Source: Oscillospiraceae bacterium
GTDB lineage: Bacteria > Bacillota > Clostridia > Oscillospirales > CAG-272
Length of the DNA stretch: 64,000 nucleotides
Assembly: GCA_015063625.1 (NCBI GenBank)
Contig: SVTT01000001.1
Coordinates: 1 to 64,000, forward strand
Direction: 5' to 3'
Shown piece after piece: positions 29,324 to 62,998 of this stretch (its first letter is position 1; every line of letters begins with the position of its first letter). The position numbers and the translations under genes were made by a program. The notes below the pieces were generated by a model. The model had not been told where the DNA came from. It worked only from the letters and a program-made list of their open reading frames with translations, and searched no databases.

Positions 29324-29638
29324 AACCCCGTGGGTATGCGGTGCTTCCAAATCAGCGCTGATGGTACGGTCGTGTCCGACCAGTCCTATTTCTATGCCAC
29401 CAACGCCCAGGGCGACGTCATTGCTATTTACGACGAAAACGGTGTTAAAATTTACACCTATGCCTACGATGCCTGGGGGAACCTGATCGAGGGGAGAGAA
29501 GTCGCCGCAGGCGGCGCTGCCGCAGCGGCAGTAAACCCCCTCCGCTACCGCGGCTATTACTTCGATGCGGAAACTGGTCTTTACTACCTCAATTCCCGCT
29601 ACTATAATCCCCAGTGGGGTAGATTCCTCAATGCGGAC
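29324..29638 (+). repeat. RHS-core repeat, copy 4
   Basis: 315 bp with the same left edge (AACCCCGTGGG) after unrelated AT-rich sequence. Alleles B-B-B (SADGTVVSDQ, DENGVKIYTYAY, AAAVNPL). Confidence 0.95.
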
Positions 29639-30208
29639 ACGTATATCAGTACGGGGACAGGATTGATTGGATACAATATGTATGCGTATTGTAACAATAA
29701 TCCGGTTATGTACATCGATCCAACCGGTGACATTTCCAAAGAGCAAGTAGGTGCAATTGTGGGGATGTTTTTTGGTCCTCTCCCGCAAATTTTAGTGTAT
29801 GTGTTTATGCCGGATGAAGAAGAGCACTATGCTAGAAATGAGAACAATACAATTGCTATACCTAAAACAAGGGATGAGGTGCCAGGAGATTGGAAAGCAT
29901 CAAATGGCGAAGGCAATCGTGAAGTTGGGCCGAAAGCCAATGCACATCAATTTACATCTCCCGATCATTCAAATGTAAAATATACTTCTCCTGACGGAAC
30001 AATGGAGGCAATCTATGATAAGAATGGCGACCTTGTAACGGATCCGCGTGATGTGGGCACTTACAATTTCTATCCATCGGAAAAGATATTTGGCTTTTTT
30101 GGTCATGGGGTGATGGACATATTGCCTTGGATTATATGGGGGAATTCTGATACGGACACCACAACGCCGTTACAACGTGTGAAAGGATTGGTAGGCATTT
30201 ATGGTTAA
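29330..30208 (+). CDS. Orphan RHS tip, cassette 4: unknown soluble toxin
   Basis: RHS core, then TGTGLIGYNMYAYCNNNPVM and a 160-residue tip. A hydrophobic segment (IVGMFFGPLPQILVYVFM) is followed by a polar region: DEVPGDWKASNGEGN, ANAHQFTSPDHSNVKY, DGTMEAIYDKNGDLV, DPRDVGTYNF. The latter strand-turn pattern is often seen at RHS ends, but I cannot name the family or its active residues. Its stop overlaps the start of the ankyrin gene by eight bases. The frame lacks a usable start, so it is a silent cassette. Confidence 0.74.
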   Translation: MGMRCFQISADGTVVSDQSYFYATNAQGDVIAIYDENGVKIYTYAYDAWGNLIEGREVAAGGAAAAAVNPLRYRGYYFDAETGLYYLNSRYYNPQWGRFLNADTYISTGTGLIGYNMYAYCNNNPVMYIDPTGDISKEQVGAIVGMFFGPLPQILVYVFMPDEEEHYARNENNTIAIPKTRDEVPGDWKASNGEGNREVGPKANAHQFTSPDHSNVKYTSPDGTMEAIYDKNGDLVTDPRDVGTYNFYPSEKIFGFFGHGVMDILPWIIWGNSDTDTTTPLQRVKGLVGIYG

Positions 30209-31043
30209 AAAACGCTTAATCAAGTACGGCGTTCTAGTTGTTGCCGTAGTAATTGCTTTTGTCGGTATTTTTGCCATCAGTCGAACGGCTTTTTCCAGAA
30301 AAATAGTCAAGCTGATTCGTGAAAGGGATTATGTTCACTTGGAGAAGATGTGTGAAGCACACCCAGGTTCCATCGATCACGTGCCATGGATCCATCAATT
30401 TTTTGGAGCACTGGCGGAGAAGCCCGAAATACTGACGCCTTTGCAAGAAGCTTGCCTTCGAAACGATATGATGGCGGTTGAAATTTTGGTGGAGCATGGT
30501 GCCGATCCGAATGTTAACAGTCATTTTGCCTCTGAATATCCACTGTCTTATGCTGTTTCAAAGGGGAATCTTCCCATGACCAAGCTGCTTGTCGATCATG
30601 GTGCAGATATAGCACTTTGCCGTGAAAAGCTGTGCTACAATCTGGCAGTGTACGCGCGTAATGAGCATGCGAATATGTGCATCGAGGAGTATATAGAAAT
30701 GGTTGAGTTATTGGAACAGAACGGCATGGATTTTTTGGAAGGAGATTCGTCTTCCTCGTGCAATATTTTTTTGAATACCGCATTATTAAATGATCTTGAA
30801 GCGGCAAGCTATTGGCTGGACTGCAAAAACGTATTGGTCGATCAGACCGATTCAAAGGGTAGAAACGCCCTTCATTTGGCTGTCCTTACGGGACATATAC
30901 GTCCGAAACTGCAATTTGTTCAATTTTTGGTGGATCGTGGAATTGATCCCTGTGCAATGGATTATGACGGAAAAACCGCTTACGATCATGCTGTGGAACG
31001 GGGATGTACCGAAATCGCGGAATATCTAAAGGAGAGAATGTAG
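30201..31043 (+). CDS. Membrane-anchored ankyrin-repeat protein, candidate immunity of cassette 4
   Basis: 280 aa. One N-terminal membrane segment (GVLVVAVVIAFVGIFAISRTAF) is followed by about six ankyrin repeats: LTPLQEACLRNDMMAVEILVEHGADPN, YPLSYAVSKGNLPMTKLLVDHGAD, and RNALHLAVLTGH near the end with YDHAVERGCTEIAEYL. Ankyrin proteins are known immunity partners in polymorphic toxin systems, and the eight-base overlap with the toxin supports this. Orientation of the anchor would decide on which side the toxin is bound. The ribosome binding site is weak (GGTAGG), consistent with coupling to the toxin frame. Confidence 0.78.
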   Translation: MVKKRLIKYGVLVVAVVIAFVGIFAISRTAFSRKIVKLIRERDYVHLEKMCEAHPGSIDHVPWIHQFFGALAEKPEILTPLQEACLRNDMMAVEILVEHGADPNVNSHFASEYPLSYAVSKGNLPMTKLLVDHGADIALCREKLCYNLAVYARNEHANMCIEEYIEMVELLEQNGMDFLEGDSSSSCNIFLNTALLNDLEAASYWLDCKNVLVDQTDSKGRNALHLAVLTGHIRPKLQFVQFLVDRGIDPCAMDYDGKTAYDHAVERGCTEIAEYLKERM

Positions 31044-31083
31044 GATAGAACAAGGTTTTCTATCTTACGAAATCAAACCAAAT

Positions 31084-31141
31084 GAGGCAGACGATATGCA
31101 AGTAAAGATCAATCAGATCTTACTGTATGTTTGCCTGCCTC
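31084..31141 (+). other. Long imperfect hairpin between cassettes 4 and 5
   Basis: GAGGCAG and CTGCCTC close a stem that continues with GTAAAGATC, loop AATCA, GATCTTAC, and has some bulges: about 26 bases on each arm. A second small hairpin, GATAGAA/TTCTATC, lies at 31046-31066. It is unrelated in sequence to the 117-nt element. Confidence 0.6.
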
Positions 31142-32181
31142 CTGTATTTGTAATTTTCCATGATGCCTGGGGCAACCCCGTGGGTATGCGGTGCTTCCAA
31201 ATGAATGCGGCAGGCACGGTGATCTCGGACAATGCATATTTCTATGCCACCAACGCCCAGGGCGACGTCATTGCTATTTACGACGAAAACGGTGTTAAAA
31301 TTTACACCTATGCCTACGATGCCTGGGGGAACCTCATCGAGGGCAGAGAAGTCGCCGCAGGCGGCGCTGCCGTCGGCGCACTCAATCCCCTCCGTTACCG
31401 CGGTTACTACTACGATGCCGAAACAGGGCTCTACTATGTATCCAGCCGTTATTATGACCCTGAGATCTGCCGGTGGATAAATGCGGATAATCAGCTCTCA
31501 GCAGGTAGTGATTTAACAGGAATGAATTTGTTTGCTTACTGTGGCAACAATCCTGTTAATCGAATTGATCCTACTGGAGAAGCGTGGTGGCATTGGGCGC
31601 TTGGTGCAGCAGTTGTGGCCGTAGCCGCAGTTGCCACAGTTGTTACTTGCGGTGGTTTTGCTGCCGCAGCAACAGCAGTGTGTATGGTCGGTAGTGGCGT
31701 TGCAGCTGCTACGACCGCATCTACAGTTGCCGCCGGAGCATTTATAGGGTCGGCAACTGTTTATGGCATGGCAGTTTTGTTTGCTGCTTCTACTTCAAGT
31801 TCTGCGCAAGAGTTCAACGACCAAGGAAATTGGGGTACGGTTGCGGCAACAGCTTTTGGTGGGCTAACGGGTGGATACGCTGGATATACAATGTCCAAAG
31901 CACAAACGCCGACAAGCACTCCAACCAACACTTCACGTGGTTCAACTGGAAGAACCGAACCAGCCAATTTGAGGGAACAATTAGCCATGGAACAAGTAAA
32001 GTCCAATCCATCGGCAGGCACACAGTTAACAAGAATCACGTTGAATGACCCACGCTGGCCTTCATCTGAGGGGTGGGTAAAAATGCAACAGATAGTACCT
32101 ACATCTCAGGGAGATATTAACATTCATTATGTTTATAACCAAACCTTAAAAATATTTGATGATTTTAAGTTTAAGTCGTAG
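31096..32181 (+). CDS. Orphan RHS tip, cassette 5: BECR-like nuclease toxin
   Basis: RHS core up to AETGLYYVSSRYYDPEIC, then an alternative core end (WINADNQLSAGSDLTG), an alanine-rich hydrophobic stretch and a compact C-terminal domain: LREQLAMEQVKSNP, LNDPRWPSSEGWVKM, INIHYVYN, DDFKFK. The DPRWP-x-x-GWVKM and terminal DFKFK pattern matches, as I recall it, RNase-like tips of the BECR type in RHS and CdiA proteins. Unlike other orphans, this frame has an ATG (31096) with GAGG eight bases upstream and a short hydrophobic lead (IL-LYVCLPPVFVIF), but it lies inside a hairpin, so expression is doubtful. Confidence 0.78.
   Translation: MQVKINQILLYVCLPPVFVIFHDAWGNPVGMRCFQMNAAGTVISDNAYFYATNAQGDVIAIYDENGVKIYTYAYDAWGNLIEGREVAAGGAAVGALNPLRYRGYYYDAETGLYYVSSRYYDPEICRWINADNQLSAGSDLTGMNLFAYCGNNPVNRIDPTGEAWWHWALGAAVVAVAAVATVVTCGGFAAAATAVCMVGSGVAAATTASTVAAGAFIGSATVYGMAVLFAASTSSSAQEFNDQGNWGTVAATAFGGLTGGYAGYTMSKAQTPTSTPTNTSRGSTGRTEPANLREQLAMEQVKSNPSAGTQLTRITLNDPRWPSSEGWVKMQQIVPTSQGDINIHYVYNQTLKIFDDFKFKS
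31174..31438 (+). repeat. RHS-core repeat, copy 5 (right part replaced)
   Basis: Shares the left edge AACCCCGTGGG; similarity stops around 31438, where LNSRYYNPQWGRFLNAD is replaced by SSRYYDPEICRWINAD. Just before it, GATGCCTGGGGC (31162-31173) repeats a later part of the core. Alleles A-B-A. Confidence 0.9.
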
Positions 32182-32201
32182 TTTGAAGAAGGAGTGATAC
32201 A

Positions 32202-32627
32202 GTGAAGGACAATATTATATTTAGCAAGATATGGCAAGATGATGATGTAATAGAATTAAAAGTTACGTGTTCCTCTTCTGTGGCAACTATCACATCAAAA
32301 ATATATGTTTCGGATCCTTTAATTGATGAATTGATTTGCCAAATTAAGCAATTCCTAGATGGAAATAACGAAGAAGGTTTATGGGCGAATGAAGATAAAG
32401 GAAATGATTCAACAGCGTGTGTATCATTACGATTTTTTAGAAAAGATAAGTTAGGACATATCGTTATAGAAGTGTTTGCGGAAATAGACGACGGAGGGGA
32501 CTACAGCGAACACAATTGTTGCTTTTATGTTAGTACGGAATATGGTTTATTAATGAGTTTTTGTGAAAGTTTAGTTCAATTAAAGAAAAATCCAGTAGGA
32601 TATGAAATTCAATTAAACTGTTCTTAA
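32202..32627 (+). CDS. Candidate immunity protein of cassette 5
   Basis: The 141 aa product starts at GTG 32202 with AAGGAG seven bases upstream, 20 bases after the toxin stop. It is acidic and soluble, beta-rich with an internal helix: IIFSKIWQDDDVIELKV, IDELICQIKQFLDG, CVSLRFFRKDKLGHIVIEV, NCCFYVSTEYGLLMSFCESL. This alternation matches small DUF-type immunity proteins that bind nuclease tips in the cytoplasm. No specific family is recognised. The placing agrees with a cytoplasmic RNase toxin. Confidence 0.72.
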   Translation: MKDNIIFSKIWQDDDVIELKVTCSSSVATITSKIYVSDPLIDELICQIKQFLDGNNEEGLWANEDKGNDSTACVSLRFFRKDKLGHIVIEVFAEIDDGGDYSEHNCCFYVSTEYGLLMSFCESLVQLKKNPVGYEIQLNCS

Positions 32628-32639
32628 ATGACATATGCC

Positions 32640-32756
32640 AGCAAGCATCACCTTTTGGGGACAAAAGGCAGCTTGTTGGGATACTCCCAAGCCCTTAAAG
32701 GTTTCGGGAATATTCTTGATAAGACTGTGTTTGGGTGACCAAACGCGATGCTTGCT
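32640..32756 (+). other. 117-nt folded intercassette element, copy B
   Basis: Same length and helix plan as copy A with about seven substitutions. Two of them fall in the fourth hairpin and change A-T to G-T and G-C to G-T, so pairing is kept; one (G to A at 32650) breaks a pair in the outer stem; the others lie in loops or linkers. Downstream, TAGAGATCAAACCCC again puts a stop codon in front of the RHS core. Confidence 0.8.
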
Positions 32757-32767
32757 GATAGAGATCA

Positions 32768-33082
32768 AACCCCGTGGGTATGCGGTGCTTCCAAATGAAT
32801 GCGGCAGGCACGGTAATCTCGGACAATGCATATTTCTATGCCACCAATGTCCAGGGCGACGTCATTGCTATTTACGACGAAAACGGTGTTAAAATTTACA
32901 CCTATGCCTACGATGCCTGGGGGAACCTCATCGAGGGCAGAGAAGTCGCCGCAGGCGGCGCTGCCGCAGCGGCAGTAAACCCCCTCCGCTACCGCGGCTA
33001 CTACTACGATGCCGAAACAGGACTTTACTATCTCAATTCCCGTTACTATAACCCCCAGTGGGGTAGATTCCTCAATGCGGAT
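32768..33082 (+). repeat. RHS-core repeat, copy 6
   Basis: 315 bp with the standard ends. Alleles A-B-B (NAAGTVISDN, DENGVK, AAAVNPL), and NVQGDV as in copy 3. Confidence 0.95.
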
Positions 33083-33700
33083 TCACAATTAAGTATTTCT
33101 TTAGGTGTTTTAGGCTGTAACATGTATGCCTATTGCCTAAACAATCCAATAAACAAAGTGGATCGCAGAGGTAATAAGCCCGGTGATTTGTTTGATACGG
33201 CGGATGAAGCTGCAATAGATTTTGCAGAATATATCAATGAAAAGTCCATAAATGTAGATCGTGAATATGGTTCTTTTATATATTCAAAAACCGTCTGGGA
33301 AACTAAAATGGCAGTATGTTATTATCCTCGCGTGCCTGGTAATAACTTTTTGTCACGCTTTTGGAATGATAACATTGCCGGCAGAATTTCTAAGATGACG
33401 AGAATATGGGTTAGAGTTACCAAATACTCGTATGTTGAGCCCGTAAAAGGAACTGCACATAGTGTGTCTATTCCCGCTAATCAATCTCGTACGAGAATAA
33501 AGGTTGCCGAAATCCACACTCATGGTGCTTATAGTCCTGGCTATCATAATGATGTTTTTTCTTCTGCAGATATAAATAATTATGTCAATTACTTGGTAAC
33601 ACCGTTAGGAACTGTAAGAAAATACGATCCTGCCGATAAAAGTGACATAATAATTTACTATGATGCACCTTTCGATCCAAAGCATCCAGGGAGGAAATAG
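32774..33700 (+). CDS. Orphan RHS tip, cassette 6: second DUF4329-type toxin
   Basis: RHS core, then LGVLGCNMYAYCLNNPIN and a DUF4329-like domain distinct from that of cassette 1: FDTADEAAIDFAEYIN, REYGSFIYSK, GTAHSVSIPANQ, VAEIHTHGAYSPG, FSSADINNYVNYL. The HTHG with a downstream SxxD is the most conserved part and may be a metal site of JAB type. It is about 65% AT after the core. The frame has no start of its own and TAG closes it 15 bases before the GTG, so it should be silent. It is followed by a different immunity gene from that of cassette 1. Confidence 0.82.
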   Translation: MGMRCFQMNAAGTVISDNAYFYATNVQGDVIAIYDENGVKIYTYAYDAWGNLIEGREVAAGGAAAAAVNPLRYRGYYYDAETGLYYLNSRYYNPQWGRFLNADSQLSISLGVLGCNMYAYCLNNPINKVDRRGNKPGDLFDTADEAAIDFAEYINEKSINVDREYGSFIYSKTVWETKMAVCYYPRVPGNNFLSRFWNDNIAGRISKMTRIWVRVTKYSYVEPVKGTAHSVSIPANQSRTRIKVAEIHTHGAYSPGYHNDVFSSADINNYVNYLVTPLGTVRKYDPADKSDIIIYYDAPFDPKHPGRK

Positions 33701-33706
33701 ACAATA

Positions 33707-34111
33707 ATGAAAAAAAGAATATATTTGCTTGTGTTTATCTTAATAATATTGGGAGGAGTCCTAATGATAGTCATTCAAAAAGATTTTCATAATATAAAAT
33801 ATCAAAATAATCCTTCTAATGTTAAAAGTTTTGAATTCAGTGACTATCAATATCATATTGAAAATTTTTCTTCGGATGAAGATGTTGGTCCCATTATTGA
33901 TGCGGAAGAAGCTGTTGCAAAAGCGGAAGAAGTTTGGAAAAAAGTGTATGGAGAGAGCGTAGAGGAGGAAAAACCATATCAAGTATTCTATGATGAAAAA
34001 AATGAAATTTGGTTAGTACATGGAACACTAGAGCCTAATATGAAGGGCGGTGTGGCATACATATTGATAGAAAGTACCGGCAAAGTGTTAGCCGTATGGC
34101 ACGAAAAATAG
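33707..34111 (+). CDS. NTF2-fold immunity protein, membrane anchored (cassette 6)
   Basis: 134 aa. An N-terminal membrane segment (YLLVFILIILGGVLMIVI) is followed by a domain with GPIIDAEEAVAKAEEVWKK, VYGESVEEEKPYQVFYD, WLVHGTLEPNMKGGVAYI and GKVLAVWHEK, which matches the NTF2-fold immunity family seen next to DUF4329 and other RHS tips. The anchor would place it outside the membrane, as for the lipoprotein of cassette 1. It begins six bases after the toxin stop, with GGAGG about 11 bases upstream of the ATG. Confidence 0.83.
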   Translation: MKKRIYLLVFILIILGGVLMIVIQKDFHNIKYQNNPSNVKSFEFSDYQYHIENFSSDEDVGPIIDAEEAVAKAEEVWKKVYGESVEEEKPYQVFYDEKNEIWLVHGTLEPNMKGGVAYILIESTGKVLAVWHEK

Positions 34112-34119
34112 ATCATATA

Positions 34120-34157
34120 AGCAGCATCGTCTTTTTGTGTCAAAAGGCGATGCTTGC
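34120..34157 (+). other. Shortened relative of the intercassette element
   Basis: GCATCG-TCTTTT, loop TGTGTC, AAAAGG-CGATGC-TTGC: the outer stem and the first inner hairpin of the 117-nt element joined directly, with the other three hairpins missing. It lies eight bases after an immunity gene, the same place as the complete copies. Confidence 0.65.
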
Positions 34158-34161
34158 AGTG

Positions 34162-34364
34162 AACAGGCACCAAGCTTTATACTTATACCTACGATGCCTG
34201 GGACAACCTCATCGAGGGCAGAGAAGTCGCCGCAGGCGGCGCTGCCGCAGCGGCAGTAAACCCCCTCCGCTACCGCGGTTATTACTTCGATGCCGAAACA
34301 GGGCTTTACTACCTCAATTCCCGTTACTATTAACTCCCAGTGGGGTAGATTCCTCAATGCGGAT
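34162..34364 (+). repeat. RHS-core repeat, copy 7 (right part only)
   Basis: About 203 bp, starting in the middle of the core at ACAGGCACCAAGC. One inserted T (CGTTACTATTAACTCCC against CGTTACTATAACCCCC) creates an in-frame TAA. Alleles at sites 2 and 3 are A and B. Confidence 0.92.
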
Positions 34365-34470
34365 GACATTCAATATCTTGGCGCAAACGGTGATCTGGAA
34401 GGTTTTAATCTCCACATTTATTGTTCTAACAATCCGGTTAATTGTATCGATCCAACAGGGCATAGTATGC
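34162..34470 (+). pseudogene. Broken RHS tip remnant, cassette 7
   Basis: The RHS core is interrupted by TAA after SRYY through a one-base insertion, then continues in another frame as FLNADDIQYLGANGDLEG, LHIYCSNNPVNCIDPTGHS. Where a toxin should begin, the sequence runs after about 30 bases into a terminator; toxin and immunity are gone. It marks the distal, decayed end of the cassette array. The ORF at 34290-34709 on the track crosses the terminator and is not a gene. Confidence 0.85.
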
Positions 34471-34516
34471 AAGTGAACGGAAGGGCTCTACTTGTGCATT
34501 TGTCTACCTTTCTGAG

Positions 34517-34555
34517 AAAAAGCGCGGAAAGACTGTCAGTCTTTCCGCGCTTTTT
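34517..34555. terminator. Bidirectional terminator closing the RHS locus
   Basis: Perfect 18-bp stem AAAAAGCGCGGAAAGACT, loop GTC, and its reverse complement ending in TTTTT. It separates the plus-strand array from the minus-strand yajC operon. Confidence 0.95.
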
Positions 34556-34562
34556 GGCGCTG

Positions 34563-35033
34563 TTATCTCCGATGACGGCGGACTCTTTTTTTCTCGCGTG
34601 TTGCAAGGAAAGCGCCTGCCATGCAAAAGGGAAAAAGCAGGGCATGAAGCCCGACGGACAGCGGGTGAGAGAGCTGATTGCCCGAGTCGGGGAGGACGAG
34701 AGAGAATAGAAAAAGAGCAACCAGCAGCAGTGCTCCCGAGGCGATACCGCAAAAGAGGGGCGCGCGCTTTTTTTGCAGACGCGCGGTCAAGGAGCCTAAG
34801 AAGAGTGCCGCGGTATAAAGAAGAACCGTGCCTGCTGCGACACCGTAGCGGTCGGGGTCCTCGGTGGTCAGCAGGAGTGCCGTGATCGCTGCGATCAGCA
34901 ACAAAAATACGCCTGTCGTGATCACAAATGCCAATGCTGTGTTTTTAATGAGTGTGGGGAAAAGAGCTTCATGCTCGCCTTGCGCACTGCTGCGCCTGCG
35001 CTTGCTGCTTGCCTTCCGTTTTGGGGTAGACAT
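34563..35033 (-). CDS. TIGR04086-family membrane protein (YrzE-like)
   Basis: A 156 aa membrane protein with a basic N-terminus (MSTPKRKASSKRRRSS) and four membrane segments, for example ALAFVITTGVFLLLIAAITAL and GVAAGTVLLYTAALFLGSL. This size, plan and the place directly downstream of yajC match the TIGR04086/YrzE family, whose role is not known. ATG 35033 has GAAGGAGG; the track's start at 35084 lies before that site. The ribosome binding site is inside a strong hairpin (35038-35081), so translation probably depends on ribosomes finishing yajC. Confidence 0.82.
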   Translation of the reverse strand: MSTPKRKASSKRRRSSAQGEHEALFPTLIKNTALAFVITTGVFLLLIAAITALLLTTEDPDRYGVAAGTVLLYTAALFLGSLTARLQKKRAPLFCGIASGALLLVALFLFSLVLPDSGNQLSHPLSVGLHALLFPFCMAGAFLATREKKRVRRHRR

Positions 35034-35037
35034 AAAA

Positions 35038-35081
35038 ATTCCTCCTTCAAGCGTACTTGGTACACTATATGAAGGAGGAAT
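35038..35081 (-). promoter_or_regulatory. Hairpin sequestering the ribosome binding site of the YrzE-like gene
   Basis: In the mRNA, ATTCCTCCTTCA (35081-35070) is a perfect 12-bp complement of TGAAGGAGGAAT (35049-35038), the Shine-Dalgarno region of the gene at 35033; the loop is 20 nt. The 5' arm begins six bases after the yajC stop codon, where a terminating ribosome would open it. Confidence 0.72.
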
Positions 35082-35086
35082 CAAAA

Positions 35087-35368
35087 TTAGTCCTGTGCGT
35101 CCTCGGCGTGAACGTCCACATTACGGACAGCGCTCTTCAAAAGGCGCATACGGGTGTGATCGCGACCGGTTTCGATGATCATGGTTTCTTCCTTGATGCT
35201 GACGATCTTGCCGATGATGCCGCCGATGGTGGTGATCTCGTCACCCACCTTCAGATTGTTACGCATTTCGGCTGCTGCCTGCTCCTGCTTCTTTTGCGGA
35301 CGGATGCCAAAGAAGTAGAATACGACCACGACGACTGCGATCATACCAACTGTTACCCAAATATCCAT
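35087..35368 (-). CDS. yajC: Preprotein translocase subunit YajC
   Basis: Accessory membrane subunit of the Sec translocon. The 93 aa product has one N-terminal membrane segment (VTVGMIAVVVVVFYFFGI) followed by the family signature RPQKKQ and the soluble YajC domain: LKVGDEITTIGGIIGKIVSI, which includes the conserved GxxVxTxGGxxGxV pattern. GGAGGAACAGC precedes the ATG. It is the first gene of a two-gene minus-strand operon with a good promoter upstream. Confidence 0.96.
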   Translation of the reverse strand: MDIWVTVGMIAVVVVVFYFFGIRPQKKQEQAAAEMRNNLKVGDEITTIGGIIGKIVSIKEETMIIETGRDHTRMRLLKSAVRNVDVHAEDAQD

Positions 35369-35443: not shown

Positions 35444-35472
35444 ATTATAACATCAGAATATTTGTTTTACAA
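35444..35472 (-). promoter_or_regulatory. Sigma-A promoter of the yajC operon
   Basis: Minus strand TTGTAA (35472-35467), 17 bases, TATAAT (35449-35444). Confidence 0.75.
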
Positions 35473-47437: not shown

Positions 47438-48541
47438 TCACGCCTTTGCTTTTTTGAAAGCGAACAGCAGGGCGGTGGCAAGGAGGAGCAGGAGGAGTGG
47501 AAGGAGCGCGCCGCACGGCAACGGTAGGGAGCCGACGTGTTCCTTGAAGGAATCGCCGAAAACGCTGATCCCTTCAAGGAAGCTCGGACGTGCCAGCCGT
47601 AAATATAGCTTCGCAAGCAGTGCGGAGAAGCCACCCTGCAGGAGCTTTGACAGCAGATAGGGAGAAATGGGTGGGTTTTCTTTTTCAAGGATCGAAAAGA
47701 TCTGAAAAAAGACCGATATTCCAGAGAAACCGGCGAGAAAGGCGCAGACGCAAAAGGCGGTGCCCACAGGGAGTGAGGTGACGGCGGTGCTGATCCCGGA
47801 GGTCATTTCCAGTATGCCGCACAGGATCACGCGAATCACAGTGGGGGGCGAGAGCGCTTCGGCAAGCTCGCTGAGACATTCCGAAAGACAGGAAAAAAAG
47901 AGCACGAATGCGATGACCTGCAAAAGATTTTGCAGCGCGCGGGAAACTCCGTTGGTAAAATCGGTCAGACTTTGGCTGTTTTTCGTCACGTAAAGGGGGA
48001 TATTTGACATTTCAGGCAGACTTCCGCCAAGGAGGTGAAGGAGGATTCCCGCAAAAATCGACGTGCTCGCTATGATGCAAAAGAGCGCAATGCCCGCACG
48101 GGCGTCGCCAAAGAGCGCACTGCCGACTCCGCCGATCAGAAAGCCCGATCCCGGGATGTTGGCAAACAGAAGAATCCTTTGAAGCTCTCTTTTTCCGATC
48201 TTTCCCTGTTCGTAAAGTGTGCGTGCCGCGGCACTTCCCACGGGCATACCGCACAAAAAGCCGATCACGATGGCGACAGACCCTGCGCGCGTCGTTCCGA
48301 ACATCCTTCGCAGGGGACGGGAAAGCGGTACCGCAATTCGCTCTCCCACCCGAAAACGCACGACAAGCTCGGACAGAACCAGAAAGGGAAACAGGGACGG
48401 GATCAGCGTTTCAAGTACGAGAGAAAGCCCTTTTCGCACACCGTTCATGGCCGTTTCCGAATCGGTCAGGAGCAGGCAGAGCAGGCAGAGCAACAGTCCT
48501 GTCGGCATCATGTCCATCAGCGTATGCACCGGCTTTTTCAC
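47438..48541 (-). CDS. ylbJ: Sporulation integral membrane protein YlbJ (SpoVV-like)
   Basis: Membrane protein of the nucleoside-recognition (Gate) type. In B. subtilis, YlbJ (SpoVV) is made in the mother cell and is needed for passing dipicolinic acid to the forespore. The product is 367 aa with about eight membrane segments; motifs include LIPSLFPFLVLSELV, GFLCGMPVGSAAARTLYEQGKI (about 92), ANIPGSGFLIGGVGSALFG (about 126) and ILEMTSGISTAV. The start is GTG 48541 with GAAAGGAAGG. Proximity to rpmF and coaD copies the Bacillus neighbourhood. A mother-cell sigma-E type promoter is visible. Confidence 0.9.
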   Translation of the reverse strand: MKKPVHTLMDMMPTGLLLCLLCLLLTDSETAMNGVRKGLSLVLETLIPSLFPFLVLSELVVRFRVGERIAVPLSRPLRRMFGTTRAGSVAIVIGFLCGMPVGSAAARTLYEQGKIGKRELQRILLFANIPGSGFLIGGVGSALFGDARAGIALFCIIASTSIFAGILLHLLGGSLPEMSNIPLYVTKNSQSLTDFTNGVSRALQNLLQVIAFVLFFSCLSECLSELAEALSPPTVIRVILCGILEMTSGISTAVTSLPVGTAFCVCAFLAGFSGISVFFQIFSILEKENPPISPYLLSKLLQGGFSALLAKLYLRLARPSFLEGISVFGDSFKEHVGSLPLPCGALLPLLLLLLATALLFAFKKAKA

Positions 48542-48542
48542 G

Positions 48543-48571
48543 GAATAATCCTTCCTTTCACATCATAAGAT
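48543..48571 (+). promoter_or_regulatory. Possible sigma-E promoter of yqfC
   Basis: GAATAAT (48543-48549), 14 bases, CATAAGAT (48564-48571), close to the sigma-E pattern (ATA-rich -35, CATAnnnT -10). It overlaps the leader of the divergent ylbJ. Confidence 0.55.
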
Positions 48572-48605
48572 AGGGCACATGCGGCACTGGAATGTCGTGT
48601 GTTTT

Positions 48606-48634
48606 ATGCTATGTGAAAGGGATTTTTATTATGC
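48606..48634 (-). promoter_or_regulatory. Possible sigma-E promoter of ylbJ
   Basis: Minus strand GCATAAT (48634-48628), 14 bases, CATAGCAT (48613-48606). The -35 lies in the first codons of yqfC, so the two divergent promoters face each other across about 90 bases. Confidence 0.52.
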
Positions 48635-62320: not shown

Positions 62321-62998
62321 TTAACAAAGCTCACGGAGTGTATCAAGCGCACCCTTTTCGATACGGCTGACGTAGGAGCGCGAGATGCCGAGCAGCTCTG
62401 CCACCTCGCGCTGGGTGCGCGGCTCTGTGCCGTCCAGTCCGTAGCGGAGCACGACGATCTGTCGCTCCCGTTCCCCTAACACCGTGCCGACCAGTCTTCT
62501 GATACGCAGAGATTTGATATGCGTGTCAACCTCCTCCTCCACATTGTCCTCGGTGGAGATGACGTCCATGTAGGTCAGCGGGTTCCCGTCGCGGTCAACG
62601 TCAATGGTTTCGTGGATCGAAACCTCGGCTGACAGCTTTTTCTGCGAGCGAAAATGCATAAGGATCTCGTTTTGAATGCACTTGGCAGCGTAGGTGGCAA
62701 ATCGCGCACCGTTGGTGGGGTTAAAGGTGTCCACCGCCTTGACCAGACCGATCGTGCCGATCGAAACGAGATCCTCTTGGTTTTTTGCCGTTCCGTAGTA
62801 TTTTCTTACGATGTGCGATACGAGGCGCAGATTGTGAAGGATCAGCTTTTCTCGCGCCTGCATATTGCCCGCCGCCTTTGCGACAAAAGCCTCGCGCTCC
62901 TCGCCCGCCTCCAGCGGCGGTGGGAAGCTCTGGGGGGAGCCGATGCCGAGTAAAAGGTGCACAGCGTTCAAGAGCAGTGAAATGAGCATGGAAAGCAT
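62321..62998 (-). CDS. sigK: RNA polymerase sporulation sigma factor SigK (pro-form)
   Basis: Late mother-cell sigma factor. The 225 aa product begins with a hydrophobic pro-sequence (MLSMLISLLLNAVHLLLG), which in other species is removed by SpoIVFB, then the sigma-2 region (HNLRLVSHIVRKYYGT, EDLVSIGTIGLVKAVDTF, RFATYAAKCIQNEILMHFR) and sigma-4 helix-turn-helix (TQREVAELLGISRSYVSRIEKGAL). The gene is continuous: no skin element splits it. GGAGGTGATACAAT precedes the ATG. Confidence 0.95.
   Translation of the reverse strand: MLSMLISLLLNAVHLLLGIGSPQSFPPPLEAGEEREAFVAKAAGNMQAREKLILHNLRLVSHIVRKYYGTAKNQEDLVSIGTIGLVKAVDTFNPTNGARFATYAAKCIQNEILMHFRSQKKLSAEVSIHETIDVDRDGNPLTYMDVISTEDNVEEEVDTHIKSLRIRRLVGTVLGERERQIVVLRYGLDGTEPRTQREVAELLGISRSYVSRIEKGALDTLRELC

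Follow-up and report, generated by a model that had tools for sequence, protein, structure and literature searches.

In the insertion sequences IS10 and IS50, the inverted repeat at the end of the element folds only in read-through RNA, where it hides the start of the transposase gene, and the element's own promoter starts inside it. In phage T4, long early transcripts of gene e, the lysozyme gene, fold into an inhibitory structure that brings synthesis down 100-fold, and transcripts from the late promoter are made without the 5′ portion of this structure; soc and 49 behave in the same way (PMC3014915).

Here we describe a hairpin between yajC and a gene of the TIGR04086 family that we consider likely to be a lock against read-through, with a bypass promoter within it. 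Its resemblance to T4 gene e lies in a Shine-Dalgarno (SD) sequence that would be buried only in the long mRNA started upstream, and in a predicted stage-specific promoter placed in the region of the 5′ strand. With predicted folds and an inferred start site, we find an SD sequestered in the long transcript, a promoter transcript without the 5′ arm and a covarying pairing. The differences are that the gene is chromosomal, that its hosts are endospore formers, that the promoter is of a sporulation type, that conservation reaches the level of the order and partly of the class, and that repression is predicted. IS10 and IS50 guard a mobile element from its neighbours, whereas here the two partners are adjacent host genes of one operon. 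The logic of gene e is known; its setting at a chromosomal sporulation gene would, to our knowledge, be new. If true, a phage trick would find a place in the development of bacteria, and it would become simple to see how a housekeeping operon can hold a stage-specific gene without leakage.

A hairpin over the Shine-Dalgarno sequence

All coordinates refer to the window, the whole 64,000-nucleotide stretch of DNA that was analysed; the features of the locus lie on its minus strand. The upstream gene, yajC (35087-35368, stop codon TAA at 35089-35087), encodes an accessory subunit of Sec, as judged from matches to TIGR00739 (E 6e-23) and PF02699. A consensus scan places a σA-type promoter, TTGTAA-17-TATAAT, in front of it (35444-35472, 10/12 matches). 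The downstream gene (34563-35033, start codon ATG at 35033-35031) encodes a YrzE-like membrane protein of 156 aa, assigned to TIGR04086/DUF3792 with E-values of 4e-7 and 3e-8. It is followed by a 39-base palindrome, nearly perfect and carrying A- and T-runs (34517-34555), visible in the sequence and as an opposite-strand self-match, which we take as the downstream intrinsic terminator. A literature search, with most subscription papers outside it, found no paper linking TIGR04086 or yrzE to sporulation and none on TIGR04086/DUF3792 in bacteria, the single DUF3792 match being unrelated.

Read along the minus strand, yajC and its TAA are followed by TTTTG, ATTCCTCCTTCA, a 20-base middle, TGAAGGAGGAAT, TTTT and the ATG of TIGR04086. 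The two arms, ATTCCTCCTTCA (35070-35081) and TGAAGGAGGAAT (35038-35049), are perfectly complementary over 12 bp, 35081-35070 pairing with 35049-35038, which confirms the arm claimed in the original prediction; that it covers the whole ribosome-binding site is equally correct, the SD GGAGG (35045-35041) lying within the 3′ arm. The start of the 5′ arm, given as six bases past the yajC stop, is at the sixth base, with the five bases TTTTG in between. The stem can be extended by one further G-T pair, and the predicted fold adds an upper helix of 7 bp, AGTGTAC/GTACGCT, closed by a CAA loop (35050-35066).

The minimum free energy of the hairpin is −30.2 kcal/mol, against −12.0 for shuffled sequences (z = −6.3; 0/200 shuffles as good). 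As a background we used stretches of the same genome, about 460 kb or roughly a quarter of it: among 337 called SD-bearing starts, the yajC-TIGR04086 helix is the strongest perfect helix covering an SD. Opening this SD costs 15.6 kcal/mol, the highest value among 288 sampled starts (runner-up 10.9, 95th percentile 7.5, median 2.9 kcal/mol). With both the fold energy and the opening rank as outliers, the hairpin is well beyond chance, as had been supposed for its complementarity. No curated Rfam family matches at 35031-35093, so that Rfam offers no known riboswitch or leader for it; the downstream palindrome gives sub-threshold matches only.

Relatives were compared through 97 distinct loci in which the sequence following yajC could be read. 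They were retrieved with a YajC query, a TIGR04086 protein query against genome contigs having given no matches, and come from uncultured organisms, metagenome-assembled genomes included, whose hairpins are predicted from DNA. All 18 loci read in the genus of the window (18/18) have an SD-covering hairpin, with letters that differ between species and compensatory changes between the arms; the pairs include TCCCTCCC/GGGAGGGA, CCCCTCCC/GGGAGGGG, CTCTCC/GGAGAG, TTCTCC/GGAGAA and others. Since MAFFT misaligned the 3′ arm when given whole intergenic regions, we tested covariation by swapping partners. The duplex of a species' own 5′ spacer and SD reaches −15.0 kcal against −10.3 with swapped partners (16 species of the genus; 0/20000 permutations, kinship ignored), and at the level of the order −16.9 against −10.4 kcal (71 loci; 0/5000 permutations, kinship ignored); shuffled spacers pair with the SD region at −9.1 kcal on average. 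In 54/71 loci the spacer pairs with at least four of the five bases of the SD, and the SD is incompletely paired in about a quarter. Own-partner duplexes being stronger than swapped ones, complementarity has been kept while the sequence drifts: the covariation set beforehand as a check is found in both genus and order, and the loss of the complement in close relatives, named as the refuting outcome, did not turn up. This supports the 5′ arm as a genuine, selected anti-SD sequence.

In other families of the class, TIGR04086 adjoins yajC in 20/35 readable loci. Seven of these 20 (L271, L283, L286, L288, L295, L307 and L310) have a clear SD-burying hairpin, with an opening energy of 10-13 kcal, and several of the remaining ones show either a long gap or a terminator that stands apart. 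Such an occurrence suggests that the arrangement is old or has arisen repeatedly. There is perhaps an even chance that it reflects a design common to Clostridia and new to description, in which developmental promoters sit inside hairpins whose arms covary and which shield a sporulation gene from its housekeeping neighbour, and lineages switch on one scaffold between SD burial and transcription termination with the promoter fixed.

A predicted promoter in register with the hairpin

Three elements of a putative mother-cell promoter overlap the end of yajC and the hairpin. The −35 element GGACTAA (35087-35093), proposed from conservation in the genus, alignment with spoIVA and a de novo motif, overlaps the final yajC codon and its stop. 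The −10 element is CATATAGT (35064-35071), with an order consensus of [CG]ATA or CATAnnAT supported by alignment, a position weight matrix (PWM) and expectation maximization (EM). Transcription would start at a conserved A in a nearly invariant column (35058), 13 nt past the C of CATA.

The register of both blocks with the hairpin is constant, the order being −35 TCATAA (GGACTAA in the genus), 16 nt, then −10 CATAnnAT. The first 10 bases of the ATTCCTCCTTCA arm fall within the spacer between them, and the −10 element lies where the arm faces the loop. The genus pattern GGACTAA-N14-CATAnnATG lies outside the pairing, and its CATA is invariant in 17 aligned sequences. Where yajC ends further upstream, GGACTAA is non-coding yet kept (L013, L014, L017, L022 and L027; GTACTAA in L018).

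The −35 element of TIGR04086 aligns with the TCATA of spoIVA at equal spacing. A PWM built from spoIVA promoters alone (16 sequences of the genus) finds its best site at the TIGR04086 promoter, with the same 16-nt spacing, in 18/18 genus loci; over the 64-kb window its two highest scores fall on the promoters of ylbJ and of yqfC-yqfD, which diverge from each other. Within its own genome, the TIGR04086 promoter ranks 11th of 352 upstream regions by this PWM. This score alone is unremarkable; the case for the promoter rests on conservation and register.

We also ran an unsupervised two-block EM from random starts on the 78 loci in which the start of TIGR04086 could be identified, using the 95% level of shuffles as threshold. 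The resulting motif is GTCATAA-N12-CCGCATATG, with a single spacing in 95% of the weight. It passes in 71/78 loci with TIGR04086, as opposed to 1/18 yajC loci without an adjacent TIGR04086, most of which have ordinary terminators in place of the element. The element thus belongs to TIGR04086 and not to yajC.

Compared with the σE promoters of spoIVA, ylbJ and yqfC, the −10 CATAnnAT and the spacing are the same, and the −35 contains ATA in most of the order; the differences are the −35 ACTA in the genus of the window and the fusion of the TIGR04086 promoter to an anti-SD hairpin. The gain in spacer-SD pairing over shuffles is 7.9 kcal at TIGR04086, against 1.5 kcal at spoIVA. As a separate observation, the −35 (GAATATTC) upstream of spoIVA in L154, L161-L163 and L168 shares bases with a hairpin further upstream that resembles a terminator, namely with its 3′ arm and T-run; here, too, an insulator is fused to a sporulation promoter.

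The inverted repeat has its centre a little downstream of a σE-like −10, and its DNA might itself serve as an operator, bound by a dimer such as that of SpoIIID, which represses many σE genes (PMC517825, PMC3789822), the RNA fold then being incidental. An operator would keep its sequence; the arms conserve complementarity instead, the 3′ arm tracking the SD. On these grounds we reject a protein operator, a reading with scarcely any probability left.

The register with the promoter bears on translational coupling, the function first proposed for the hairpin. On that view the 5′ arm would be melted by a ribosome that ends translation at the yajC stop; the SD would be freed, and output of the second protein would follow that of YajC. 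A terminating ribosome covers roughly 12-15 nt, and the arm in the window, 5 nt past the stop, is inside this footprint, as would be the arm in about half of the relatives (gap of 15 nt or less). As in operon coupling hairpins, the downstream SD is covered by an arm right after the upstream stop. However, stop and arm keep no constant distance here: the gap spans −3 to 73 nt, being longer than 15 nt in 28/52 loci with a sequestered SD, and what the arm keeps is its register with the promoter, not with the yajC stop. Moreover, a transcript from the predicted promoter needs no coupling. With arms this far from the stop, a terminating ribosome could open the hairpin in the species of the window, not generally. 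We therefore reject coupling as the conserved function, and the idea of a fixed protein ratio is likewise not supported; a role as the main explanation is quite improbable. In the species of the window coupling is physically possible, and might let some expression through the lock. An anti-SD arm that follows a stop codon, however perfect, need not imply translational coupling.

Predicted read-through and promoter transcripts

With the anti-SD arm inside the promoter spacer, a transcript started at the promoter would be without it. Across the genus, the predicted mean cost of opening the SD is 12.9 kcal in the read-through transcript and 2.5 kcal in the promoter transcript, opening being more than 3 kcal harder in the former in 18/18 loci. 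In 50 other loci the predicted values are 9.7 and 3.2 kcal, respectively, with a gap above 3 kcal in 36/50.

These values are consistent with the following scheme. In growing cells, messages from the σA promoter of yajC would extend into TIGR04086 and fold, burying its SD, and little protein would be made. During sporulation, a mother-cell sigma factor would start transcription at the promoter whose spacer is the anti-SD arm; the shorter mRNA, devoid of that arm, would leave the SD open and allow synthesis of the TIGR04086 protein. Given a promoter with the −10 and spacing of spoIVA, TIGR04086 is probably switched on independently of yajC, when the cell sporulates. A predicted time of expression in the mother cell, across Clostridia, would make the function of this uncharacterised TIGR04086/DUF3792 protein, with its putative role in sporulation, open to test.

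It is also conceivable that the hairpin is mainly the intrinsic terminator of yajC, the SD of the next gene happening to form its 3′ arm, and that insulation occurs by termination. Many loci have a T-run after the stem, the window itself has TTTTT ahead of the ATG, and yajC loci without TIGR04086 mostly carry ordinary terminators at this place. Eight loci of the order (L026, L067, L086, L096, L100, L110, L111 and L115) have a strong stem, in most cases followed by a T-run, and a separate SD that the stem leaves free. Against this, the T-run is missing in about half of the genus (L004, L009, L013-L017, L022 and L027) with the SD pairing still compensated; that of the window is short, and a terminator scan made no call at the hairpin. 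Termination as the main function is thus unlikely, if less so than coupling. Where relatives have the same hairpin before a T-run and a separate SD, the lock would probably act through transcription termination. A single DNA segment would serve at once as promoter spacer and anti-SD arm and, in some species, as terminator.

Three loci (L085, L093 and L103) have the hairpin in spite of a separate upstream terminator. Behind a normal terminator, a lock against read-through offers residual protection only, and blocking read-through from yajC may not be the whole reason for the hairpin. The simplest common denominator across loci is that expression by read-through is blocked, either by SD burial or by termination, and that the internal promoter avoids the block.

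Candidate sigma factors and neighbouring loci

The genome of the window contains sigK, identified by family match, as well as spoIVA and spoIIID; from their sequences, we take further genes to be sigA, sigH, sigF, sigE and sigG. Within the window, a sigK-like gene (62321-62998, minus strand; best match NF004471/TIGR02846) is intact, with a frame free of a skin element.

In C. difficile, spoIVA, ylbJ and yqfC are σE genes, and the −35 elements contain ATA in σE promoters and AC in σK promoters (PMC3789822). The order consensus TCATAA fits the ATA of σE. In the genus of the window, GGACTAA has ACTA, that is, CTA for ATA, and also contains the AC resembling σK; the −10 CATAnnAT expected of a σE promoter is present at the spacing of spoIVA in 18/18 loci. 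We infer a mother-cell promoter read by σE in most of the order, and by σE or σK in the genus of the window. Two genes were sought to separate these sigma factors: the upstream regions of dpaA show no clear promoter near the start, and the genus yielded no yabG. Upstream of dpaA, a GACATAatctGt-like site is conserved in L250, L253, L254, L256, L258 and L267; a hairpin resembling a terminator often follows it ahead of the dpaA start, and the whole may be an attenuated sporulation leader.

Two other regions of the window deserve mention. The 90-bp divergent intergenic region at 48541-48631, between ylbJ (47438-48541, minus strand) and the yqfC-like gene with yqfD (plus strand), contains the two best σE-like sites of the window and is a near palindrome: the SD of each gene is complementary to the promoter spacer of the opposite gene. 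On the other side of TIGR04086, an array on the plus strand (29330-34476) consists of RHS/YD-repeat C-terminal modules in series, with repeated cores and differing tails. Small genes stand between the modules (an ankyrin-like one at 30201-31043, and others), and the whole resembles an array of cassettes that hold RHS tips and their partner genes. The palindrome at 34517-34555 sits between this array and TIGR04086, and is likely a bidirectional terminator for the convergent genes.
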